Positions 5,228 to 36,167 of a stretch of 64,000 nucleotides of DNA are shown here, one piece after another. A program made the translations under genes and the position numbers. Numbering within the stretch: position 1 is the stretch's first letter; each line of letters opens with the position of its first letter. The stretch comes from Ignavibacteriota bacterium (GTDB lineage Bacteria > Bacteroidota > Ignavibacteria > Kapaibacteriales > UBA2268). A model generated the notes under the pieces. That model was not told the origin of the DNA. It worked only from the letters and a program-made list of their open reading frames with translations, and did not search any database. The DNA lies in contig JAHBUQ010000001.1 of NCBI GenBank assembly GCA_019637995.1, positions 372,001 to 436,000 on the forward strand, given 5' to 3'.

Positions 5228-8200
5228 ATGACTACAAAGATGAGTAAGTTGAAACATACTGTAAATTCAGACTTAATTGAAAGAACTAAAGAATTAAATT
5301 GCCTTTATCGGGTAGAGGATTTATTTAGTCAAACCCACCTCACGTTAGAAGAATTGATGAATTCTTTGTTATTGATAATTCCAACAGGCTTCAGATTTCC
5401 TGAAACAATTCAGATAAGAATCAAGTTTTTTGATAAGATTTATCACAGTACAAAATTCAAAGAAAGTAATTTCAAAATCGAAAATATTATCAAAGCGTTC
5501 GATGAGTCTTTCGGAAAAATTGAAGTCTTTTCAAGTGAAAGCGATATCCCATCAAGCCAAAATCCATTTCTTCAGGAAGAGACGCAACTACTTACAACAA
5601 TTTCAGACAGAGTAGGACATTTCGCTATTTATCTTAAAGTCAGAGGCTTATTTCATGAGCTTAAAGAATTAAATGATGAGCTTACCGAATCACATAAACC
5701 TGAATGGCTGGTTATTCTTGATATGCTCAAGAAAACTGACCAAAATTTATATTCTATTTTATCTCGCAAAATGCTTAATCATCTTTTTTGTAAAGGTGTT
5801 AGAGAATCAACTGATTTGTTCAAAAAGTTAGGTTCGAATATAGACTATGATACTACTGTTTCCACTGAAATTAACAGACCAAGCAAGAAAACAGTTCTGA
5901 TGCAGTCATTCAAGTTTGGTCATGAAATTTTCAAATTAGCTTCAAGATATTTCAGCGATGAAGACATAATACAAAAAATTCAGAAATGGATTCACGAAGA
6001 GAAATCTCATATTCTGATTAAGTTGCTTGCTAATCAGAATTCATCACTGACTGACCTTGCCGATGCTATAAGAAGGTATCACAGTATTAACCCGGGAGGA
6101 GAAATCGGTGCTACACCTACCAGACACGGTATAGTTGTGGCATTGATTAGAAGATTTCTGACTGAACAACTCGAATTTATTGATATTGCTAAGAATTACT
6201 TTTGGGAAGAAGATTTCTATTATTTATTGCAAAAATTGATCTTTCCAGCAGAAAGTCATGGTAAAATTGGTGGCAAAGGAGCGGGTCTTCTTCTTGCAAG
6301 AAAAATAATTGAAAAATCAAATAAATTTTCTGATGCTCTCAGGTCAGTGAGATTCCCGAAAACATGGTATATTACATCAGACGGATTAACTAATTTCATG
6401 TATTATAATAATATGGAAGATGTTTTAGACCAGAAGTATAAGGATATTGATGAAATACGTCAGGAGTATCCACATATAATTCAAGCATTTAAAAACTCCA
6501 ATTTTTCACCTGAAATAATGAATGGTTTAAGCCGGGCTCTTGATGATTTTGGCGATAATCCAATAATAGTACGTAGCTCATCATTGCTTGAAGACAGACT
6601 TGGATCAGCTTTTGCAGGAAAATACAAGAGCCTGTTCCTTGCAAATCAAGGTCCAAAGCAACAGAGAATGGAAGAACTTCTTGACGCAATATCTGAAGTT
6701 TATGCTTCTACATTTGGTCCTGACCCTATTGGATACAGAACTGAAAAGGGTCTGCTTGATTATAATGAAGAAATGGCTATTCTAATTCAGGAGGTTGTCG
6801 GTGTCAAAAAAGGTAAATATTTCTTTCCGGCATTCTCCGGAGTTGCATTCAGTAATAATGAATTTCGCTGGTCACCAAGGATTGAGCGTGAAGATGGATT
6901 AATCCGTATGGTTCCTGGTTTAGGTACTCGTGCTGTGGATAGAATTGGTGATGATTTTCCAATGTTGCTTGCTCCGGGAAAACCAAATTTAAGAGTAAAT
7001 CAAACATTTCAGGAAATTGTAGGATATGCTCCGAAATTTATTGATGTAATGAATTTAAATACAAATACATTTGAAACAATTTCTGTTGATGATTTAATAC
7101 GTGAAATCGGTAATGATTATCCTATGCTAAATGAAATATTTTCTATAGTAGATGGAAGAAATATAAAAAGACCAATTGGACTTGGTATAGATACAAGACA
7201 GCACGATATTATTGCAACATTCGATAATTTAATCAACGGCAAAAAATATATCGAACAAATTTATTATATGATGGTTGAACTTAAAGATAAACTCGATACT
7301 CCGGTTGACATTGAATTTGCATGTGATGGTAAGAATATTTATTTATTGCAATGCCGTCCCCAATCTTCATCCGGTGAATCTGTATCGGCGATAATACCAA
7401 CTGATGTACCTCAGGAAAAAGTACTCTTTACAGCTAATAAATTTGTTTCAAACGGTAAAGTTCCCGATATAGCATTTATAGTATATGTTGACCCGCTCAA
7501 ATATTCAAAATTGGAGAAACACGAAGACTTGCTTGCTGTAGGGCTTGCTGTTGGTAAACTCAATAAAATGTTACCCAAGAAGAATTTTATACTTATGGGT
7601 CCCGGAAGATGGGGAAGCCGTGATGAAATAAAGCTCGGTGTAAAAGTCACTTATTCTGATATACATAACTGTGCAGTTCTTATCGAAATTGCTAAACAAC
7701 AAGAAAATTATACTCCTGAACTTTCTTTCGGCACTCATTTCTTTCAGGATTTGGTAGAGGCCGGAATAAGATATTTACCTCTTTATCCTGACAATGAAAA
7801 CCAGGAATTTAATTGGGAGTTCTTCAACTCAAAAGAAAATACTTTGACAAGATTTTTACCGGAATTTGAACATATAGCCGACGTACTGAAAGTAATAAAT
7901 GTCCGCGAGAGCACAGCAGGAAGCGTAGCACGAGTATTACTGAATGCGGATATGGGTGTAGCGATGTGTTTGCTTGCTGATTCTTCTATTTCTCAAAGTT
8001 ATACGGCAAATACTGAGCTTGTGCAGAAAAGTGACAGTTATTATGATGAGCCGCTTCAATGGAGAAAACGTATGGCAGAAAGTTTAGCACTCAAAATGGA
8101 TGCTGCGAGATTTGGAGTTAAGGGGGTTTATCTTTTCGGAACTGTGTTTAACGAAACTGCGAGCGCAAATTCCGATATTGACCTTCTTGTTCATTTTGAA

Positions 8201-8410
8201 GGAAGCGAAGATCAACGCAGGGAACTTAATACTTGGTTTGAGGGATGGAATCATTGCCTGAGTCAAATTAATTACAATCGCTCAGGCTATTATATTGAAA
8301 AATTTCTTGATATAACTTATATTTCGGAAAAAGATTTCAAGGACCAAAAATATTATGTGGACTTGATGGATTCAGCTAATCATTCTTCAAGAAAATTAAG
8401 TATGGGTTGA
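5228..8410 (+). CDS. GAF-like / pyruvate-phosphate-dikinase ATP-grasp / nucleotidyltransferase fusion protein
   Basis: 1060 residues, cytoplasmic. Residues about 20-160 resemble the GAF-like sensor domain found in some histidine kinases (LNCLYRVEDLF, then FLQEETQLL). Residues about 345-720 are the PEP/pyruvate-binding ATP-grasp domain: GGKGAGLLLA, IIVRSSSLLEDRLGSAFAGK, MAILIQEVVG, PVDIEFACDGKNIYLLQCRPQ. About 720-940 contain the FILMGPGRWGSRDE module often attached to these proteins. Near residues 967-985 lies a minimal nucleotidyltransferase-type motif, LFGTVFNETASANSDIDLLV (G-T in place of G-S, then D-x-D). The phosphohistidine swivel and PEP-forming barrel of true PEP synthase are missing, so it is not a normal PEP synthase; a regulatory phospho- or nucleotidyl-transfer role is an inference. 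Confidence 0.75.
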   Translation: MTTKMSKLKHTVNSDLIERTKELNCLYRVEDLFSQTHLTLEELMNSLLLIIPTGFRFPETIQIRIKFFDKIYHSTKFKESNFKIENIIKAFDESFGKIEVFSSESDIPSSQNPFLQEETQLLTTISDRVGHFAIYLKVRGLFHELKELNDELTESHKPEWLVILDMLKKTDQNLYSILSRKMLNHLFCKGVRESTDLFKKLGSNIDYDTTVSTEINRPSKKTVLMQSFKFGHEIFKLASRYFSDEDIIQKIQKWIHEEKSHILIKLLANQNSSLTDLADAIRRYHSINPGGEIGATPTRHGIVVALIRRFLTEQLEFIDIAKNYFWEEDFYYLLQKLIFPAESHGKIGGKGAGLLLARKIIEKSNKFSDALRSVRFPKTWYITSDGLTNFMYYNNMEDVLDQKYKDIDEIRQEYPHIIQAFKNSNFSPEIMNGLSRALDDFGDNPIIVRSSSLLEDRLGSAFAGKYKSLFLANQGPKQQRMEELLDAISEVYASTFGPDPIGYRTEKGLLDYNEEMAILIQEVVGVKKGKYFFPAFSGVAFSNNEFRWSPRIEREDGLIRMVPGLGTRAVDRIGDDFPMLLAPGKPNLRVNQTFQEIVGYAPKFIDVMNLNTNTFETISVDDLIREIGNDYPMLNEIFSIVDGRNIKRPIGLGIDTRQHDIIATFDNLINGKKYIEQIYYMMVELKDKLDTPVDIEFACDGKNIYLLQCRPQSSSGESVSAIIPTDVPQEKVLFTANKFVSNGKVPDIAFIVYVDPLKYSKLEKHEDLLAVGLAVGKLNKMLPKKNFILMGPGRWGSRDEIKLGVKVTYSDIHNCAVLIEIAKQQENYTPELSFGTHFFQDLVEAGIRYLPLYPDNENQEFNWEFFNSKENTLTRFLPEFEHIADVLKVINVRESTAGSVARVLLNADMGVAMCLLADSSISQSYTANTELVQKSDSYYDEPLQWRKRMAESLALKMDAARFGVKGVYLFGTVFNETASANSDIDLLVHFEGSEDQRRELNTWFEGWNHCLSQINYNRSGYYIEKFLDITYISEKDFKDQKYYVDLMDSANHSSRKLSMG

Positions 8411-8494
8411 TGAAAAATATCTGATTATCATTATTGTTCCTCAATTTACAACAGAATTCAACTAATATTGTTAGCTCATATACGAAATCTAATA

Positions 8495-8536
8495 AAAAAA
8501 AGCCCCTTAGGAATCATAAAGGGCTTTGCATTTTTA
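8495..8536. terminator. Bidirectional terminator between convergent genes
   Basis: Stem AAAGCCC (8499-8505) / GGGCTTT (8521-8527) has a further TTA/TAA pairing inside, an A run before it and a T-rich tail (GCATTTTT) after it. It lies between the fusion gene (plus) and gyrA (minus) and can serve both. Confidence 0.82.
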
Positions 8537-8553
8537 ATAACAATCAAATGAAT

Positions 8554-11055
8554 TTATAACAAAGGTTCCTGACCGTTTGCATCAGTATGATCGAAATCAA
8601 TTTCCTCACCGGTAATTTCATCATCATCACGATTTACTGTAGTAATGTCAGCAATTTTATCGCCTTCATCCAGTCTGATAAGTCTTACACCTTGAGTATT
8701 TCTACCAATTGTACGAATATTTTTGATGCTTTGACGGATAAGAATACCATTTACAGTCATAACCACTAAATCCTCGCTGTCATTAGCAGGCAGAAGCCCA
8801 ATTACTTTTCCGGTTTTAGAGGTAAGATTCATCGAAATAACACCTTTGGCGCCGCGTTTTGTTAGTCTGAAATCTTCGTGCTTGGTTCGTTTTCCATAAC
8901 CTTTGTCACTTACAACCAGCACTTGTGTATCAGCACGCTTGATAACAATCATTGAAATTACATAGTCGTCTTTTGATAATGAAATTCCTCTCACACCAGC
9001 GGCGGTTCTGCCCATACCTCTGACATCACTTTCTCTGAATCTGCAGGCAAGACCTTCTCGTGTACCGATGATAACATCGCAATTTCCATCTGTGATTTGT
9101 GCTGAAATCAGTTTATCCCCTTCATCAAGATTAATTGCAATTATTCCTGTCTGCCTTACATGGGCGAATGCTGAAAGCCCCGTTTTCTTGATTGTTCCGC
9201 TTTTTGTACACATCATAGCGAATTCATTATCCGTAAATTCTTTAACAGGCATTAATGCAGTTACTTTTTCATCAGGCAATTTTCCGATTACATTAGCAAC
9301 AGACCTGCCTTTTGAATTTCTGCTTCCTTCCGGTATGTCGTAAACCTTGATTCTATATACTCTTCCGGCATCAGTAAAGAATAAAATATATTGATGAGTA
9401 GATGCCTGATAGATAAATTCAATAAAGTCATCGTCATAAGTGGCTGTACCGCTCGAGCCTCTGCCGCCTTTGTTTTGGCGACGGTAATTAACCAGTGCTG
9501 TTCGCTTGATATACCCATTATGAGACATTGTTACGATTACCTCTTCATTAGCTATCATATCCTCAATAGAAAATTCACGGGAATCCATAACAATTTCAGT
9601 TCTTCTTTCATCACCGAATTTATTTTTCAGCTCAAGAAGTTCTTCTTTGATTATTTCCATTTGAAGATTATGATTATCTAAAATTGATTTGAGTTTTTCA
9701 ATTAATTGAAGTATTTCGCGATATTCTTTTTGAATTTTCTCTCTTTCAAGACCGGTCAATCTTTGAAGTCTCATTTCGAGAATCGCTTTTGACTGAATTT
9801 CCGATAGTCCGAAGTTTTCCTGAAGTGCAATAGATGCAGTATTCGGGTCACGCGAATCTCTGATAGTTTTGATTACAGCATCAAGATTATCAAGAGCAAT
9901 TATAAAACCTTCCAAAATGTGAGCACGTTTCTCGGCTTGGTCAAGTTCAAACTTGGTTCTTTTTACAACAATTTCATTTCTGAATTTGATGAAATAATGC
10001 ATCATTTGTTTAAGTGTCAGCACTTTTGGTCTGCCATTAACAAGTGACAGCATATTCGAGCCGAAAGTAACCTGCAATTGAGAATGTTTAAATAAATTGT
10101 TAAGTACAACATCAGCATTAGCATCACGCTTGAGGTCAATAACGATTCTCATTCCGTTCCTATCAGATTCATCATTAAGACCTGAAATATCTTCAATTAC
10201 CTTACTGCGAACAAGGTCTGCAATCTTTTCAATCAGATTGGCTTTATTTACTTGATATGGTAGCTCTGCTACAATTAATGACTGTCTGGATTTGGCTTTA
10301 TTCTCTTCAATGAAGACTTTCGCTCTTACTGTAATTTTTCCGCGTCCGGTGAGATATGAATCTCTAACACCATTATAACCGTAAATAATACCGCCCGTCG
10401 GGAAATCAGGAGCAGGAATAATTTTCATTATTTCTTCATCGGTTAAATCTGGATTCTCAATTAAAGCCATCAAACCATTTATAATTTCTGTTAAATTGTG
10501 TGGAGGAATATTTGTTGCCATGCCAACAGCAATCCCGCTTGCGCCGTTAACAAGTAAAGTTGGAAGTACAGTTGGAAGTACTGTTGGTTCTTTTAACGAT
10601 TCATCAAAATTATTCTGAAATTCAACAGTATTTTTATCAATATCTCTTAAAGTCTGAGTTGCTATTTGTGCAAGTCTTGTTTCTGTGTAACGCATTGCAG
10701 CAGGTGGGTCGCCGTCAACTGAGCCGTAGTTACCCTGACCATCAACAAGTGGATAACGCATACTCCAATTCTGAGCAAGTCTAACCATTGCTTCATAAAC
10801 TGAGCTGTCTCCATGAGGGTGATACTTGCCAAGCACTTCACCAACAAGACGTGCTGACTTTTTGTAAGGACGGTTGGGTGCGAGACCTAATTCCTGCATC
10901 GCAAATAATATTCGTCTGTGAACAGGCTTAAGACCATCACGTACATCCGGTAAGGCACGCGATACTATTACTGACATTGAGTAATCCAGATACGAATTAC
11001 GCATTTCATCTTCGAGAAGGGTCTCGACTATGTTACCTTTATCAAGCAGTGACAT
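8554..11055 (-). CDS. gyrA: DNA gyrase subunit A
   Basis: 833 residues from ATG 11055; upstream in-frame codons to 11118 add 21 residues unlike any GyrA N-terminus and overlap the promoter, so they are excluded. The breakage-reunion domain shows [35 protein letters not shown] and the catalytic Tyr in [10 protein letters not shown] (about residue 122). The C-terminal DNA-wrapping pinwheel begins with a GyrA box, QNKGGRG, near residue 525, which separates gyrase from ParC. The quinolone-resistance region has Ser at the E. coli Ser83 position and Glu at the Asp87 position, a pattern also seen in wild-type enzymes. The C-terminus is acidic ([10 protein letters not shown]). gyrB is not in the window. 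Confidence 0.96.
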
Positions 11056-28977: not shown

Positions 28978-29507
28978 AATGCCCTCTTAGGATTATTATT
29001 TACATAAGTTTTGATTTCTGTACTCAGCAGTACTTTTAGTTGTTCTTTTCCCCTGTAAAGCCGCTGTTTAAGTGTTTCAAGTTTCACATTTTGAATTTCC
29101 GAGGCGATATTTTGAGGATAACCCAGAATATTACACAACACAATTGCTTCTTTCTGCTCCTTTGGTAATTTTTCCATTGCTTCATAGAGAAGTTTAATTT
29201 CATATATTCTGTCGGGTGTCAGTTCACGGGATTCGAGCAAATCATAATATTTTTCTGAAGTAAGTTCAGTCATTTTCTGTTTTGCTGCTCTGCTGTAATT
29301 AAGTCGTGATGCAATTGAAAACATCCATGATAGAAACGCCCCGTAATTTCTTAATTTATCAAATTCTCTGTAAGCAGATTCAATTGTGTCCTGAAGTAAA
29401 TCCTTTGCATCGTCGTAAGTCGGCGTTACCGATAGGCAAAACCTCCAGAGGTTCTTCTTCAGCGGTTCAAAGAGTTCTAAAAATTTGTCTTGTTTATTTC
29501 GCATCAT
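28974..29507 (-). CDS. ECF-type RNA polymerase sigma factor
   Basis: 177 residues. Region 2 is visible as DDAKDLLQDTIESAYREFDKL (shown in part: LLQDTIESAYREF) with FLSWMFSIASRL, and region 4 as LPKEQKEAIVLCNILGYPQNIASEI followed by a helix LKQRLYRGKEQLK that would contact the -35 element. The lengths and the missing region 3 are those of ECF sigma factors. It is translationally coupled (ATGA) to the membrane protein downstream, which is the usual arrangement of a sigma factor and its anti-sigma. Which genes it drives cannot be told; autoregulation is common. ATG 29504 is an equally good start. Confidence 0.9.
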   Translation of the reverse strand: MMRNKQDKFLELFEPLKKNLWRFCLSVTPTYDDAKDLLQDTIESAYREFDKLRNYGAFLSWMFSIASRLNYSRAAKQKMTELTSEKYYDLLESRELTPDRIYEIKLLYEAMEKLPKEQKEAIVLCNILGYPQNIASEIQNVKLETLKQRLYRGKEQLKVLLSTEIKTYVNNNPKRAL

Positions 29508-29577
29508 ACTTTCAATTTGTTTTACGAACAGTAAGAGCAGTGAAACTTAAAAAAGATGACAAAGATAATTAAAAATA

Positions 29578-29608
29578 TTTGATTTAGATATTTTTTATTG
29601 TATTTTTG
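29578..29608 (+). promoter_or_regulatory. Putative promoter for the small gene at 29670
   Basis: TTTG (29578-29581), 19 bp, then TATTTTTG (29601-29608), matching the Bacteroidetes TTTG - 19 bp - TAnnTTTG consensus exactly. It lies about 60 bp before ATG 29670 and is the strongest reason to think that small gene is expressed. Confidence 0.55.
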
Positions 29609-29669
29609 AATTAGAATTTAATGTGATTTCGATTATAGGTTTTAAAACTTACTAATGTGATGAGCAACC

Positions 29670-29852
29670 ATGAGTTTACACAACGACATCAACGACCTTG
29701 TTCGGGCTGAACTTAAATATCGTCAATCTTTGCAGGATTCAACCGCAGTTACTTATGCTTCGGTTTTTGTCAAAAATGGTAAAGCCGTATTGAAAGATGT
29801 ATTAATTAATGGTGTATCAATCCGGAGGATTGTGGAAGAGGAAATGAAGTAA
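29670..29852 (+). CDS. Small protein of unknown function (60 aa)
   Basis: 60 residues, soluble and charged, ending in SIRRIVEEEMK. I do not recognise it. A near-consensus promoter lies about 60 bp upstream; the ribosome-binding site is weak (GATGAG). It sits between the ECF sigma factor and a YD-repeat-like fragment in a stretch with other gene remnants, so it could be a small accessory protein (phage- or toxin-associated) or the intact start of a decayed gene. Confidence 0.5.
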   Translation: MSLHNDINDLVRAELKYRQSLQDSTAVTYASVFVKNGKAVLKDVLINGVSIRRIVEEEMK

Positions 29853-29872
29853 GGTCAAGATGATAATTGTTA

Positions 29873-30121
29873 ATGATTAATATTGGCAAATTAGTAAATG
29901 TTAAAAAAACCTATTTGATTTCTCTTAAATCCTACAATTACAATAATGCAGGACGATTAGTGGAATATACCAAGAGCAATATTTCCGGATTTGGTTCAAG
30001 TTGCAATCAAAATATATTACCAAATGAGGCATTCAATGCAGACAAATGGACATTGGGCTATATGTATAATCATGACGGAGTGCGTGAGCAGATGCGTTTT
30101 TTCAAATTGAAAATTGGTTAA
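29873..30121 (+). pseudogene. YD/RHS-repeat-like fragment
   Basis: About 82 residues from ATG 29873. The middle reads YNYNNAGRLVEYTKS and later WTLGYMYNHDGVREQMRF. These resemble YD (RHS) repeats of the form Y-x-Y-D-x-x-G-R-L and Y-x-Y-x-x-D-G. Only two units are present, no signal peptide precedes them and the frame stops soon after, whereas real RHS proteins have dozens. It is best read as a remnant of a surface or toxin-delivery protein gene. Confidence 0.42.
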
Positions 30122-30496
30122 AAATGTCAAAAAGATAGTTAAAAATGTTAATAAGATTTCTTATTATGAAATTATTTCATATTATTATAATTTTTCAATT
30201 GTTTAAAATAAAAAAGTATCGTTTAGTTTTCATAATTTAATGTATTCTTAAAAAATATAAGGTTTTTGATTATATGGCTACGATTAATATAATAGCCACA
30301 ATAATTAACTTTTTGAATAAATTTATATAATTACAATTTAAAAATAAATTTTGGAAATTGCATTTTTGTGAAATGCTATAAATAATTAATTCGCTATATT
30401 TTCAATATATTTAATTTTTTATTCGTACAATGAACCCAAATATTTACAAACATTGCAATAGAAATTAAACTATTCACAATTCATTTACGCTTTAAT
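30122..30496. other. AT-rich intergenic region before glyA
   Basis: About 370 bp of very AT-rich sequence. I see no coding frame. A short TGGCTA/TAGCCA inverted repeat lies at 30275-30298 with no T run. The region may hold decayed sequence continuing from the YD-repeat fragment, but nothing can be named. Confidence 0.45.
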
Positions 30497-30527
30497 TTTG
30501 CAGTCAGAATTATTTACATTACTTTTG
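30497..30527 (+). promoter_or_regulatory. Putative glyA promoter
   Basis: TTTG (30497-30500), 19 bp, TACTTTTG (30520-30527): a full match to the Bacteroidetes -33/-7 pattern. It lies about 60 bp upstream of the glyA ATG, leaving a leader of about 55 nt. Confidence 0.6.
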
Positions 30528-30588
30528 TAATATTGGATTAATCCATATTTAACGAAAGTTTTTGAGAATTAAAAATTAGGTTATTATT

Positions 30589-31884
30589 ATGTACGAAATA
30601 GTTAAAGCAAATGACCCGGAACTTTATGACGTTCTGATGAAAGAGAATGCCCGCCAGCACGAGAAAATCGAACTTATTGCAAGTGAGAATTTCACTTCTG
30701 ATGCAGTTATGCAGGCGCAGGGTTCTGTCTTGACAAACAAATATGCTGAAGGTTACCCGGGCAAACGCTACTACGGCGGTTGTGAGTGGGTGGATGTTGC
30801 TGAAGATATCGCCCGCGACAGACTAAAAAAACTATTTGGAGCTGAATATGTGAACGTTCAGCCACATAGCGGTTCAAATGCCAATCTTGCTGTGTATTTC
30901 ACTTTCATCAAGCCGGGTGATACTGTGATGGGGCTTAGTCTTGCTCACGGCGGACATCTTACTCACGGCTCACCTGTGAATTTCTCCGGTCGTTTGTATA
31001 ATTTTATTCCTTACGAACTGGACCCTGAAACCGGAATTATTGACTATGATAAAGCCGCAGAACTTGCTAAACAGCACAAACCAAAACTGATTACAGTAGG
31101 TGCATCTGCTTATTCTCGTGATATTGATTTTGCAAAATTCCGTCAGATTGCTGATTCTGTAGGTGCATTTTTATTTGCTGATATTGCACATCCTGCCGGA
31201 CTGATTGCGAAAGGTAAACTCACAAATCCACTGCCATACTGCGACATAGTTGCATCAACAACTCATAAAACGCTACGTGGACCTCGCGGCGGTATCATAA
31301 TGACACACAAAGATTACGAAAATCCATTCGGCTTGGTGGCACCAAAATCAGGACGCGTGAAGAAAATAAGCGAAGTGCTTGATTCAATGGTTATGCCGGG
31401 CGTTCAGGGTGGTCCGCTTATGCACGTAATTGCTGCAAAAGCTGTTGCTTTCGGCGAATGTTTGTCGGATGAGTTCGACCGTTATACAACTCAGGTTATC
31501 AAAAATGCAAAAGCATTTGCACAAGCTATGAGCGACAAAGGTTATAACCTTGTTAGTGGTGGCACCGACAACCACCTTATGCTTATAGACCTACGCAACA
31601 AAGGTGTTACCGGAAAGCAGGCAGAAAATGCATTAGATGAATCGGGCATCACGTGTAACAAAAATGCAGTACCAAACGACAATCAATCGCCACTTGTTAC
31701 ATCGGGCATTCGTCTTGGCACTCCTGCAATGACTTCACGCGGTTTCCGTGAGGATGATTTCCTTTATGTAGCCGAGTTGATTGACCGCGTCATCACAAAC
31801 ATTGACAACAAAGCCCTACACGCAGAAATCACCGAAGAAGTAAAACGCTACACAGCTAAATTCCCTCTGCACCAGAAGATGTGA
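30589..31884 (+). CDS. glyA: Serine hydroxymethyltransferase
   Basis: 431 residues, PLP-dependent. It converts serine and tetrahydrofolate to glycine and 5,10-methylene-THF and feeds the one-carbon pool used by MetH in this window. Motifs: [66 protein letters not shown] and the PLP lysine in [13 protein letters not shown] (about residue 229). The length and spacing are normal. Codon use looks less AT-biased than the neighbouring accessory genes, as expected of a highly expressed core gene. It stands alone between its promoter and a terminator. Confidence 0.97.
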
Positions 31885-31897
31885 GAAAAATAAATTT

Positions 31898-31931
31898 GTA
31901 GGGATGAGATTATTCTTGTCCCTACTTTTAT
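31898..31931 (+). terminator. Terminator after glyA
   Basis: GTAGGGA (31898-31904) pairs with TCCCTAC (31919-31925), with G-T pairs extending the stem inward, and TTTTAT follows. It lies 13 bp after the glyA stop and separates glyA from the AAA/TOPRIM-like pair. Confidence 0.75.
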
Positions 31932-31989
31932 ATCCAACTAAATCCACTCTAAAATCGTTATAATGTATATAATTTTTCAGGTGCTGTAA

Positions 31990-33063
31990 ATGAGTGAACA
32001 TTTTTTTAGTAAGGTTGAGATTAAGAATTTCAAATCAATAGAATACATTGAATTTGAATGTAAAAGAATCAATGTATTTATCGGCAAACCTAATGTCGGT
32101 AAGTCATGTATTATTGAGGCACTATCCTTGCTTGCAAACCCGGATTTATTATTTCAGCAAGATTTAAAATCTGTGATTAATTTTGAGGATAATTCTAATT
32201 TATTTCACAATAATATAAACAGAAATAATATTAGCATTAGAACTGATAATTCAATCGCTTTAATGAATTATGACAAAAATTATAACTTTCTAAAATCAAA
32301 TAATAAACTATTATTAGAGCCATCAAATCATTATTTATTTGATGATTTTAAGAGTATTAATGAAATATTTAATCAATTTAAACAGAAGTATGGTAATCCT
32401 GATTTAGTTTTATTAAATCCTTACAACTCAGACATTCATTATTATCAAATAACAGAGCATTTGAATGATTTTTCTGGCTTTACAAAACCATACAAATTTA
32501 AGGCAAATATAAACTATTTAAGCAAAGATAATTTAAGTTTGTTAATTCCTAATGGGAATAATCTGTTTTGGATTTTATCACAATATGAAGATTTACAAAA
32601 TGAATTTGCTGAAATCCTTGGTGAATACAATTTAGATTTAGTCTATGACCCAAGTAAAAATCTATATTTCAGCCAGAAAAAATTGCAGAAATATAACGTA
32701 TCACAAATCCCATTCTCAATGTTAGCTGATACAATACAGAGGATTATTTTTTATTCAGCAGCAATCGAATCAAACAACAATTCAATTTTATTATTTGAAG
32801 AACCTGAGGTAAATTCTTTTCCACCATATATACAAGAGCTTTCGAATAAAATTCTATTGAGCAAAACAAACCAATTTTTTATAACAACTCACAGCCCTTA
32901 CTTACTTACAACTTTACTTGAAAGTTCAACTAATGAAGTTATACTAAATATTGTGGGTTACAAGGATGGTAAAACAACAATTTATCAAACAAGTTCCGAT
33001 GAAATTAGCGAGCTGTTGAGTTATGACTCCGATATCTTTTTAAATATTGACAGATACATCTGA
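31990..33063 (+). CDS. AAA/ABC-type ATPase (OLD/RecF-like), first gene of a two-gene module
   Basis: 357 residues, cytoplasmic. Walker A is GKPNVGKSC near residue 33 after a typical start KVEIKNFKSIEYIEFE. The C-terminal part carries FSMLADTIQRIIFYSAAI (signature-like helix), Walker B in ILLFEEPEVNSFPPYI and the switch His in FITTHSPYLLTTLL. These are marks of the AAA_15/AAA_21 group seen in OLD nucleases and in defence systems such as PARIS and Gabija. The long nuclease C-terminus of OLD is absent; the next gene may supply it. AGGTG precedes ATG 31990 at good spacing. One base separates its stop from the next start. Confidence 0.85.
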   Translation: MSEHFFSKVEIKNFKSIEYIEFECKRINVFIGKPNVGKSCIIEALSLLANPDLLFQQDLKSVINFEDNSNLFHNNINRNNISIRTDNSIALMNYDKNYNFLKSNNKLLLEPSNHYLFDDFKSINEIFNQFKQKYGNPDLVLLNPYNSDIHYYQITEHLNDFSGFTKPYKFKANINYLSKDNLSLLIPNGNNLFWILSQYEDLQNEFAEILGEYNLDLVYDPSKNLYFSQKKLQKYNVSQIPFSMLADTIQRIIFYSAAIESNNNSILLFEEPEVNSFPPYIQELSNKILLSKTNQFFITTHSPYLLTTLLESSTNEVILNIVGYKDGKTTIYQTSSDEISELLSYDSDIFLNIDRYI

Positions 33064-33064
33064 A

Positions 33065-33580
33065 ATGAAAAATTTTCCGATTTTTATTGAGGGTTATCTT
33101 GATGAGTCCATCATAAATCAAACTGTGGATTTAATTGCAAAACAAAGCAAATACCAAATTACGCGAAAAGACTTTTTCATTGACAGAGCGAAAGGTATTA
33201 ATGCTGTTCTTAATAGAGTTATCAAAATTGATAAATCTTGTATTGGAATTATTGATGACGACAAAGTAAAATCAAATATTATTGATAAATTCCAGCATTG
33301 TGGTTCTTTGGGAAATTTGAATTTCTACTATTCAGGAAATCATAATACTCACAAGTTTGTAATTGTTTTTGTACCTGCAAGCGAAAAGTGGATTATTGAT
33401 TCTGCAAATACAATTGGAATAGACAACACTACGACAACTTTAAAAGAATTTACAAAATTCAGTAAATCACATATAATGATTGAAGAAATTCAAAACATTG
33501 TTAAGAAGGTTATCTTTGGTGAGGCGAGGAATGCAGTCATTTTTAGAAGAATAATTTTTGGAATTATCAAAAGGTATTAA
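33065..33580 (+). CDS. TOPRIM-like partner of the AAA ATPase
   Basis: 171 residues from ATG 33065 (TTG 33047 is an alternative that overlaps the ATPase). The N-terminal FPIFIEGYLDESIINQTVDL resembles the first TOPRIM strand with its catalytic Glu, and CIGIIDDDKVKS resembles the D-x-D strand. Later KFVIVFVPASEKWIIDSAN is a conserved-looking segment. A TOPRIM-like nuclease encoded next to an AAA_15-type ATPase is the plan of several phage-defence systems. At 171 residues this protein is much shorter than known partners such as AriB, so membership in a known system is uncertain. The C-terminus (RRIIFGIIKRY) is basic. Confidence 0.6.
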   Translation: MKNFPIFIEGYLDESIINQTVDLIAKQSKYQITRKDFFIDRAKGINAVLNRVIKIDKSCIGIIDDDKVKSNIIDKFQHCGSLGNLNFYYSGNHNTHKFVIVFVPASEKWIIDSANTIGIDNTTTTLKEFTKFSKSHIMIEEIQNIVKKVIFGEARNAVIFRRIIFGIIKRY

Positions 33581-33598
33581 TTTTTCTTAGGAATATCT

Positions 33599-33627
33599 AC
33601 TCCCCGCTTCGGAATGAGGCGGGGAGT
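33599..33627. repeat. Inverted-repeat hairpin related to the element at 26467
   Basis: ACTCCCCGC (33599-33607) pairs perfectly with GCGGGGAGT (33619-33627), loop TTCGGAATGAG. It shares CCCCG...CGGGGAGT with the element at 26467-26494. It lies 18 bp after the TOPRIM-like gene and could act as a terminator stem, although no T run follows directly. Confidence 0.7.
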
Positions 33628-33689
33628 GGGTTAATAATATTAATCATAATATTTCGTTTTAAATCATATAATAATTATTAGGTGACGTT

Positions 33690-33914
33690 ATGGAAAATTT
33701 TATTATTGAAAATAACAAAGATGAGTTAATATTCAAACTGAAAAAATCTGACTTTGACAGTAATTTTATTCTCTCATTAATAAAGAACTTAGAAACTGAA
33801 AGTCTGGCTCAAAGATCCGGTTTTGATGAATCAATATTATCAATAGCTGAAGAAATCAAATCTAATTGGTGGAAGCAGAATCGAGATGAATATATGAAGG
33901 ATGTTTCTATTTGA
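33690..33914 (+). CDS. Antitoxin-like protein of a PIN-domain toxin-antitoxin pair
   Basis: 74 residues, acidic and mostly helical, with AGGTGA 5 bp before the ATG. The ending WWKQNRDEYMKD is the kind of C-terminal tail that antitoxins use to wrap the toxin. The stop overlaps the start of a PIN-domain gene by 4 bp (TTGA). I do not see a clear ribbon-helix-helix or AbrB motif, so the DNA-binding class is not assigned; identification rests on size and position. Confidence 0.65.
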   Translation: MENFIIENNKDELIFKLKKSDFDSNFILSLIKNLETESLAQRSGFDESILSIAEEIKSNWWKQNRDEYMKDVSI

Positions 33915-34329
33915 AGAGCAAATCATCAATAGTTGATACTAATATCATCTTTTCAGCTCTAATACCCCTATTGAGTCTAAAATTAGAAGTTGTCTCATTG
34001 ACTCAAATTACCAATTTTATTGTCCAAATTATGTGATTTATGAAATTTATGCTCATAAAGAAAAGATGATTAAAAATTCCAAACTTTCAGCTACTGATTT
34101 TTATATTCTAATGAGTAGAATCATTGATTTCATAAGATTTATTCCTTCAAGTTTGGTTTCTTATGAAAATAAAAAAAAGGCTTTTGAACTTTGTTTTGAT
34201 ATTGATGAAAATGATGTTCCATTTATTGCATTATCATTAGAACTTGATATTCCATTATGGACAGGAGATAATAAATTGATTTCAGGTCTTAAAGAAAAAG
34301 GTTTTAACAATTTTTTTGAGCTCAAATGA
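33911..34329 (+). pseudogene. PIN-domain toxin with a -1 frameshift
   Basis: From TTG 33911 one frame reads SIVDTNIIFSALIP, the start of a PIN ribonuclease with its first acidic residue. The match then jumps by -1 at a run of four C (33965-33968) to a frame reading ESKIRSCLIDSNYQFYCPNY and then VIYEIYAHKEK, with the other acidic residues in DENDVPFIAL and WTGDNKLI. One extra C would restore a protein of about 139 residues. So the toxin is disabled, or it is read by frameshifting, or the base is an assembly error. The second part alone spans 34033-34329. Confidence 0.75.
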
Positions 34330-34397
34330 GAATTGAATATTATCCCGAAACTGATACACTTTATATTGATATTAATGATACTGAAAAGAAATTTTGA
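34326..34397 (+). pseudogene. DUF2283-like stub
   Basis: A 23-residue frame starts inside the PIN gene stop (ATGA overlap) and reads RIEYYPETDTLYIDINDTE before a stop. This is the start of a DUF2283 domain, which is normally about 50-80 residues, so it is truncated. DUF2283 genes often stand next to toxin-antitoxin genes. The following 130 bp hold no continuation that I can see. Confidence 0.55.
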
Positions 34398-34527
34398 ATA
34401 TTAAGAGAAACCAATATTCATTTAAAGTCGCAGAGTGAGTAATTGTCAGCTACCAACCACCCCATCCCAAAACCTCAGTTTTAGAAGAAAATAATCCAAT
34501 TTTTTTATTAAACCTTAATTAAAGCGT

Positions 34528-34881
34528 TTAATCAAGTTTTTTTCCGGGATATCTTTTTATATATTCTGTTTCGCTTTGCATTTTAAGGCTTGTACCTTCC
34601 TTAATCATTTTATTTCCTTCCTGGATTTTTGCTTCGGATTGGTTAAGAAGTTTTTCAGCTTCTTCTTTCATCTTAATTGCTTTTTGCTTGTCTTTCTCAC
34701 CATCAGAAACAAGCTTTTCACCATTAGTTATCATTTTATCTCCATCTTCCCACATATCTGCAAGGTCAAGTTTGAGATTTGCTCCATCTCGCATCTTGTC
34801 TGCTGCTGTAGGTTTTGAAGTTGAACATGATACAAATAATACGAACGATATTAATACTAATATTTTTGATTGAAAATTCAT
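34528..34881 (-). CDS. Coiled-coil lipoprotein, unknown function
   Basis: 117 residues with a lipoprotein signal (ILVLISFVLFVSCSTSK; Cys about 19). The mature part is one long amphipathic helix of repeating charged heptads rich in K, E and M (LVSDGEKDKQKAIKMKEEAEKL in part), ending in RYPGKKLD. The size and composition recall Lpp-like or YgdR-like helical lipoproteins that link or space the outer membrane and wall. No partner gene lies next to it. Confidence 0.72.
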   Translation of the reverse strand: MNFQSKILVLISFVLFVSCSTSKPTAADKMRDGANLKLDLADMWEDGDKMITNGEKLVSDGEKDKQKAIKMKEEAEKLLNQSEAKIQEGNKMIKEGTSLKMQSETEYIKRYPGKKLD

Positions 34882-34988
34882 TTTAAGAGACCTTATATTA
34901 TTAACTATTATTTATTAACGCATCAAAGGATGTTATATTATTACAATAACATTTCAATCTTAAGGAAATTTTGTTATTTTTGCAAATT

Positions 34989-36167
34989 ATGAAAAATACA
35001 ATATCAGAACAAACAAAAAAATTTATAAGAGATAACTTTGAAAATGAGCCCTATCAACTTTTATTGAATAAGGTACATATTCCAGATATTGATATTGCAT
35101 TTGCAGTAAATGAAATTCAATGTCGAAAGAAATTATCTCACAAAATGTCTGATTGGGCTGATAATTATGATTTAATTATGCCTCAGCCTAAGAATATCGA
35201 ACAATCATCAGGTTTCTTGGCAGCAAAATATAAATCTAATCTTTTTAAGTATGAAAAATCGCTTGATTTGACAGCAGGCTTTGGTGTGGATTCATATTTT
35301 ATTTCCTCTAATTCAAAAAGTCATATTTGTGTAGAATCAGATTTATCTTTACTGAATATTCTTGTTCATAATTTTGAGGCTCTTTCAGTTCAAAATACTC
35401 AGTTTATAAATATTTTTGCCGAAGATTTCTTAACAAGTAATATATTAAAATTCGACTATGTTTATATTGACCCTGACAGGCGCGATAAAGCAGGAGAGAG
35501 GAAATTCAGTATTAATGAATGGCAGCCTGATATATTGAAAATTTTCCCGGAATTGAAAGGAATAACTAAATTTTTGCATATCAAGCTTTCACCAATGATG
35601 GACTTAACTGCAGTAATGAAGTTGTTTCCGGAATTATCAAAAATTTATGTAATTTCAGTCAATAATGAATGTAAAGAACTTTTGATTGAATTTGATTTTA
35701 CTGCATTAAATCTTTCTAAACAAATTGTAGCTGTCGAATTAAGTGATAGCCCTTTCGAGCATATTTTTAATTTTAATGATAAAATTGACATAAAGACCGA
35801 GTATCCGAAGAAATACATATATGACTCACACCCTGCAATTTTAAAGTCAGGATTTAGTGATTTTTATGCAGGTAAATTTGGTTTGTCAAAGATTGGAGTG
35901 AATACTCATATTTATACTTCTAATGATTTGATTGAGGGATATGCCGGCAAAGTATATCAAATCATCGGACTGACAAAGCCTGACCGAAAAGAAATCATGA
36001 AATTTTTACCCGATATGAAAGCTATTGTAATCAGAAAGAATTTCCCTCTTAAAGTAGCTGAAATCAGAAAAAAATATGGTATAACTGAAGGAGAAGAATA
36101 TACCATATTTGCTGTAAAACTTAGTGATAACAAGAACAAGTTTCTTGTAAGTAAGAGAATAAATTAA
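34989..36167 (+). CDS. Class I SAM-dependent methyltransferase with THUMP-like C-terminal domain
   Basis: 392 residues from ATG 34989; the frame continues six codons upstream without signals. SAM motif I is SLDLTAGFGVDSYF (about 84-97); VYIDPDRRDKAGERK is the catalytic-loop equivalent. The C-terminal 90 residues (DRKEIMKFLPDMKAIVIRKNF, in part IMKFLPDMKAIVI) match the ferredoxin-like THUMP-like domain of the PG_1098 family, found across Bacteroidota. Such proteins are thought to methylate RNA, but the target is unknown. A TAnnTTTG motif at 34975-34982 lies so close to the ATG that a near-leaderless message is possible. The stop abuts the stop of the convergent PAS kinase gene. Confidence 0.82.
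   Translation: MKNTISEQTKKFIRDNFENEPYQLLLNKVHIPDIDIAFAVNEIQCRKKLSHKMSDWADNYDLIMPQPKNIEQSSGFLAAKYKSNLFKYEKSLDLTAGFGVDSYFISSNSKSHICVESDLSLLNILVHNFEALSVQNTQFINIFAEDFLTSNILKFDYVYIDPDRRDKAGERKFSINEWQPDILKIFPELKGITKFLHIKLSPMMDLTAVMKLFPELSKIYVISVNNECKELLIEFDFTALNLSKQIVAVELSDSPFEHIFNFNDKIDIKTEYPKKYIYDSHPAILKSGFSDFYAGKFGLSKIGVNTHIYTSNDLIEGYAGKVYQIIGLTKPDRKEIMKFLPDMKAIVIRKNFPLKVAEIRKKYGITEGEEYTIFAVKLSDNKNKFLVSKRIN

Follow-up and report, generated by a model that had tools for sequence, protein, structure and literature searches.

A conserved ATPase and TOPRIM-like gene pair from an Ignavibacteriota bacterium as a candidate split module of the PARIS/AbiL type

In the PARIS system, a hexamer of the ATPase AriA sequesters AriB, and a phage protein releases AriB as a tRNA-cutting dimer (PMC12409363). 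ATPase and TOPRIM are encoded by separate adjacent genes in PARIS, which a review of OLD proteins ranks as split class 4 (PMC10568477). AbiLii is the toxic effector of the abortive-infection system AbiL, and validated toxin-antitoxin pairs, one of them of the RloB type, consist of a TOPRIM_OLD toxin and an AAA protein that neutralizes it (PMC10440598). The AbiL/RloA-RloB systems (AbiLi plus AbiLii; RloB, PF13707) consist of an ABC ATPase gene followed by a TOPRIM-like gene of ~200 aa. Similar arrangements are found in HEC-01 (PADLOC “Hma-embedded candidate”), with an ATPase (HEC-01A, profiles of 363 to 464 aa) and a partner of ~200 aa (HEC-01B), and in pairs, identified in this analysis, in which an AAA ATPase of 357 to 451 aa directly precedes a DUF4276 (PF14103) TOPRIM-like protein of 185 to 238 aa. 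In Gabija GajA and class 1 OLD proteins, the ATPase is of the same type but the TOPRIM is fused to it within one protein of 500 to 640 aa.

We analyzed a gene pair of this general plan in a 64,000-nucleotide stretch (here, the window) of an Ignavibacteriota genome (GCA_019637995.1, contig JAHBUQ010000001.1). As the first-pass annotation had described, an ATPase gene encoding 357 residues ends one base before a gene encoding 171 residues; both reading frames are intact, and the motifs quoted for them (GKPNVGKS, ILLFEEPE, ITTHSPY, FIEGYLDE, and GIIDDDK) are all present. The features of the locus are as follows.

31898..31925, forward strand: glyA terminator, with a stem of 12 bp and a T-rich tail after it; a boundary outside the module.
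31990..33063, forward strand: ATPase gene, 357 aa, TGA stop, intact; OLD/RecF-like ABC ATPase, putative sensor or repressor subunit.
32083..32106, forward strand: Walker A GKPNVGKS, residues 32 to 39; G32, P34, G37, and K38 invariant in 16 sequences.
32725..32742, forward strand: ADTIQR, residues 246 to 251, at the ABC-signature position, which usually reads S-[DE]-G.
32785..32808, forward strand: Walker B ILLFEEPE, residues 266 to 273; E271 and P272 invariant in 16 sequences.
32881..32901, forward strand: His-switch region ITTHSPY, residues 298 to 304; T300 and H301 invariant in 16 sequences.
33065..33580, forward strand: small TOPRIM-like gene, 171 aa, intact; putative nuclease effector.
33089..33103, forward strand: TOPRIM-type motif 1 EGYLD, residues 9 to 13, after strand 1; E9 and D13 invariant in 17 sequences.
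33245..33265, forward strand: TOPRIM-type DxD motif GIIDDDK, residues 61 to 67, where strand 3 ends; invariant D64 and near-invariant D66.
33374..33391, forward strand: P-x-x-E-x-W motif PASEKW, residues 104 to 109, from the alignment; resembles RloB NPxFExW.
33595..33631, forward strand: hairpin with a 16-bp stem and 5-base loop and no T run, directly 3′ of the small gene.

The ATG of the small gene at 33065 lies one base 3′ of the ATPase stop; a program-made list of reading frames starts the gene at TTG 33047, and alignment with relatives favors the ATG. Since glyA has its own terminator upstream, directly after which the pair was correctly placed by the first-pass annotation, the two genes form a separate unit. 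The downstream hairpin is a possible transcript end for the pair (region 33580 to 33660: folding energy, −30.7 kcal/mol; z, −5.9). The hairpin repeats that had been noted were not recovered; this hairpin occurs only once in the window, and a repeat search over positions 29500 to 35000 returned short, mostly AT-rich matches. G+C content is 26.6 and 28.7% in the two genes, versus 33.9% in the window and 44.6% in glyA, an AT richness that is compatible with acquired DNA but is no proof of acquisition. Positions 33690 to 34329 hold an antitoxin-like reading frame of 74 aa and then a frameshifted PIN_2 toxin gene, whose N-terminal (VDTNIIFSAL) and C-terminal parts occupy different frames, so the toxin-antitoxin pair reported earlier is real but broken. 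By eye, this broken module is the only other defense gene set in the window, the remainder of which looks housekeeping, and the proposed “defense hotspot” shrinks to ~2.4 kb at most.

The ATPase has a Walker A motif, a Walker B motif with a catalytic glutamate, an H-switch, and an AAA_15/AAA_21 domain (Pfam AAA_15, 2.1e-15; AAA_21, 7.7e-9; both above the curated cutoffs) and is thus an OLD-type ABC ATPase. In a tree that included the ATPases partnering RloB and DUF4276, built by a quick method with a short search, the window ATPase and 15 relatives formed one group (SH-aLRT, 99), and the RloB-partner and DUF4276-partner ATPases formed groups of their own (SH-aLRT, 100 and 96). The canonical ABC signature S-[DE]-G is missing from the window ATPase. 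At this position, 13 of the 16 ATPases carry [AS]D[TS]x[QKR]R, and the other 3, all archaeal, are the only ones to keep the SEG (as SEGLRR); the RloB- and DUF4276-partner ATPases carry SDG or SEG. The altered signature suggests that ATP may be bound in a multimer and its hydrolysis altered.

Clear relatives of the ATPase, at 31 to 37% identity, occur in 5 of 246 other genomes of the phylum; a sixth genome yielded a weak match and is kept apart from these. Further relatives came from GTDB contigs and from samples of Bacteroidota, Pseudomonadota, Spirochaetota, and one archaeal phylum. All were reached via ATPase queries, as direct searches with the small protein were fruitless: with its sequence as the query, GTDB contigs, plasmids, and phages yielded no relatives, and 247 genomes yielded only chance-level matches. 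The adjacent pair is present at 16 loci besides the window, in Bacteroidota, Pseudomonadota, Spirochaetota, and Thermoplasmatota, and because adjacency recurs in three bacterial phyla and in archaea, the pairing is far beyond chance. Homologues living mainly apart from each other is not what we observed: 14 of the 15 complete ATPase relatives, bacterial and archaeal, have an intact adjacent partner of 150 to 197 aa with the same motif pattern. At the 15th (L040/L094), the small gene is a broken remnant (VVIIVECNLDEFLIKLIVQE, then a stop). At two more loci (L038 and L039), the partner also lies directly downstream and the ATPase is cut by the contig end. A profile of the first six small proteins recovered the partner in four independent genomes (E, 1e-15 to 6e-26), and a 17-sequence profile run against 148 genomes matched only ATPase-bearing genomes, with one exception (G091). 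In that genome, the small protein is present as a C-terminal remnant interrupted by a stop (L107, 8399 to 8626); it lacks the ATPase and adjoins XRE-type regulators and, by eye, an apparent Abi-like protein.

A mirror-tree comparison over 15 matched pairs gave a correlation of r = 0.76 between the distances in one protein and those in the other (0 of 5,000 permutations). This value includes shared descent and supports joint inheritance of the two genes, not contact as such. The pair is therefore a real conserved two-gene unit, and its patchy spread and remnants mark it as an accessory element. The window pair itself had no close relative among the matches. The 72,556 plasmid records yielded a single degraded ATPase fragment, a decayed family ATPase without an intact partner on a Parabacteroides distasonis plasmid (L016, NZ_OY725749.1, ~6001 to 6519). 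One scan of viral contigs returned nothing, and another returned only a different ATPase. The viral contig IMGVR_UViG_3300046694_000460 (L021, 1289 to 3222) carries an OLD-type ATPase of 411 aa and, after it, a protein of 231 aa that contains EGITD and DTD motifs; lying beside phage tail-like genes, the two make up a different, phage-borne split ATPase-TOPRIM-like pair.

Most relatives of the pair stand alone among housekeeping genes (miaB, mnmE, metH, and metG, named by eye), outside defense islands, and the order metG-pair-epimerase is conserved in two genomes. Two spirochaete pairs lie inside type I restriction cassettes, in the orders hsdM, pair, ietA, ietS, hsdS (L091) and pair, hsdS, Ppl, AbiLi, AbiLii (L092). 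The cassette genes were recognized by PADLOC (E values, 8.5e-27 to 1.7e-142), except the L092 hsdS, which was identified by its likeness to the scanned L091 gene. A DUF262-type gene (PDC-M55C) and HipA lie within a few genes of another pair (L088). In Methylocucumis oryzae (L017), the pair sits between glyQ and a glyS whose reading frame appears shortened at the N terminus. It adjoins a HEC-01-like pair, a second ATPase fragment and small gene resembling HEC-01A and HEC-01B (7858 to 8983), directly before the family pair. The number of such defense neighbors is small and is a raw count. In a genome of the window's own genus (G196), 2.1 kb right after glyA reads N (L105, 10102 to 12240), so the lack of the pair there is not certain and an empty-site comparison fails; beyond the N run lie a ParE-like toxin and then a DNA methylase fragment.

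To the observed pair, with its conservation, co-variation, and spread, its catalytic-type residues, and the restriction-cassette placement of its relatives, we add a model of function taken from PARIS (PMC12409363, PMC10568477). A sensor or lock joined to a TOPRIM nuclease is proposed because gene order, sizes, motif set, and context fit PARIS and the AAA-TOPRIM plan. We think it fairly likely that the pair is an accessory two-subunit immune module, in which an ATPase lock or sensor and a TOPRIM nuclease would bring about growth arrest upon infection; the nuclease activity, its target, its inhibition, and its trigger are what we infer. The OLD-type ATPase would bind the small protein and hold it inactive until a phage cue changed the shape of the ATPase and freed its partner. 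The freed protein would act as a metal-dependent TOPRIM nuclease (E9, D13, D64, and D66), cutting nucleic acid; by analogy with AriB, its target would most likely be RNA (tRNA or another kind), with DNA as a possibility. Such an attack would halt the cell before the phage multiplied.

The cassettes with IetAS, Ppl, and AbiL are in line with the defense role suggested by the first-pass annotation, and they also bear on two other explanations. The pair could be a toxin-antitoxin-like stabilizer of mobile DNA, in which the ATPase neutralizes a TOPRIM toxin without dedicated phage sensing. The validated toxin-antitoxin pairs of AAA-neutralized TOPRIM_OLD toxins (PMC10440598) are a precedent, the window pair adjoins a PIN toxin-antitoxin module, and its relatives are scattered single insertions with a remnant on a Parabacteroides plasmid. 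Against this, relatives occur within type I restriction cassettes and a search of so many plasmid records gave just one degraded fragment, and we consider a stabilizer unlikely. Less probable again is a RecF/OLD-like pair for DNA repair or chromosome maintenance, with a housekeeping role similar to that of the archaeal OLD protein Cran1. Cran1 is an example of an essential OLD protein (PMC12796447), the conserved metG-pair-epimerase order suggests stable inheritance in those two genomes, and the ATPase matches the RecF-type NCBIfam model TIGR00611 (5.7e-8, far below its cutoff); the very patchy distribution in the phylum, the broken remnants, and the restriction-cassette neighbors all count against such a role.

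The small protein matched no family in Pfam, NCBIfam, or PADLOC, and a PDB sequence search with small-protein profiles gave no match. In the TOPRIM pattern, strand 1 is followed by EGxxD, such as the EGYMD of DnaG, and strand 3 by DxD. In the alignment of 17 sequences (the window protein and 16 homologous adjacent genes), glutamate follows strand 1 and DxD follows strand 3 (E9, D13, D64, and D66). AlphaFold models were confident for the window protein (pLDDT, 87.8) and a spirochaete member (pLDDT, 94.1), with the element order strand-helix-strand-helix-strand and the acidic residues at strand ends; in the window model, E9 directly follows strand 4-8 and D64 closes strand 59-64. With hhalign, the family scored 22 to 27.5 against RloB and DUF4276 sets built within this analysis, versus ≤18.3 across 60 column shuffles per target. 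RloB and DUF4276 scored 28.7 and 15.9 against each other, a strength similar to that of the small-protein family against each. In these alignments, the DxD falls on the RloB and DUF4276 DxD, and the P-x-x-E-x-W region lies opposite the RloB FExW and is matched to the DUF4276 motif as well.

Foldseek with the small-protein models found nothing at E ≤ 0.001 in the PDB or BFVD, and the basis of the TOPRIM assignment is therefore the motifs, the order of the elements, and weak profile scores. The OLD TOPRIM 6nk8 was at rank 5 (E, 0.16). Matches to lumazine synthase, peptidyl-tRNA hydrolase, and SAH hydrolase were rejected (E ≥ 0.03, low TM-scores), as were weak Pfam matches to DUF7759, Spc7, EC042_2821, and others, which were single-sequence noise. 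Taken together, motifs, models, and weak profiles indicate that the small protein is very probably, if not provably, TOPRIM-like, in agreement with the first-pass annotation. That it is some other Rossmann-like metal-binding protein, of different activity and no TOPRIM nuclease, fits the lack of a significant match to any solved TOPRIM structure and of a passing Pfam family but is improbable given two findings: EGxxD and DxD stand where strands 1 and 3 end, and the RloB and DUF4276 alignments keep the same register and outscore the shuffled controls.

With the small protein taken as TOPRIM-like, the pair can be set against the described systems. Small size had been regarded as its distinguishing mark, a point that is not borne out: the shortest DUF4276-partner ATPase has 357 aa and the shortest DUF4276 partner 185 aa, and AbiL/RloAB, the DUF4276 pairs, and HEC-01 share both plan and similar size. 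AbiL/RloB shares with the family its occurrence in type I restriction cassettes and the E...DxD...P-x-x-E-x-W layout. Its ATPase clade is separate, however (SH-aLRT, 100 versus 99), and the window proteins are somewhat shorter than the RloB pairs found here (ATPase, 416 to 477 aa; partner, 189 to 245 aa). The window small protein had no RloB/AbiLii match, and one relative matched AbiLii at E = 0.0097. HEC-01A matches the window ATPase over nearly its full length (2.3e-15), and the best HEC-01B match was 0.032, in 1 of the 17 small proteins. For DUF4276, the best E value was 0.059 (2 of 17), with ATPase clades again separate (96 versus 99). These single-member matches, with DUF3226 at 0.026, are weak and stand alongside unrelated noise of similar size. 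None of the 17 small proteins matched AriB (DUF4435), and the match of the window ATPase to AriA is at a level similar to that of the general AAA_15 domain. GajA is the best PADLOC match of the ATPase (1.9e-17); membership in Gabija was rejected since no UvrD-like GajB helicase gene lies next to the pair.

By its partner protein, the pair thus belongs with none of AbiL, PARIS, HEC-01, the DUF4276 pairs, or Gabija, yet it probably has the same working plan. Its place outside the described systems, proposed in the first-pass annotation, stands, with no AbiLii, AriB, or HEC-01B model convincingly matched by the small protein or its relatives. We found no paper naming this family in a literature search whose coverage included only a minority of subscription journals. 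We conclude that the pair represents a new family of split ATPase-TOPRIM modules, similar to PARIS and AbiL and as yet without a name, with a putative role and mechanism in defense; it would be a further split OLD type beyond class 4. A more far-reaching interpretation, possible but tentative, is an unnamed split-OLD branch across bacteria and archaea. Its bacterial ATPases would have lost the canonical signature glycine ([AS]-D-[TS] for S-[DE]-G) and would serve as an ATP-holding lock rather than a hydrolyzing motor, paired with a nuclease family unrecognized by the defense catalogues searched.

The small proteins make up a compact putative effector family that is missed by Pfam, NCBIfam, and PADLOC and is therefore currently overlooked in defense surveys. 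The family extends the split ATPase-TOPRIM plan of PARIS and AbiL to a group common to bacteria and archaea, and its small proteins and short operon make it an easily testable module, in which the altered ABC signature offers a clean handle on whether such sensors need ATP hydrolysis.
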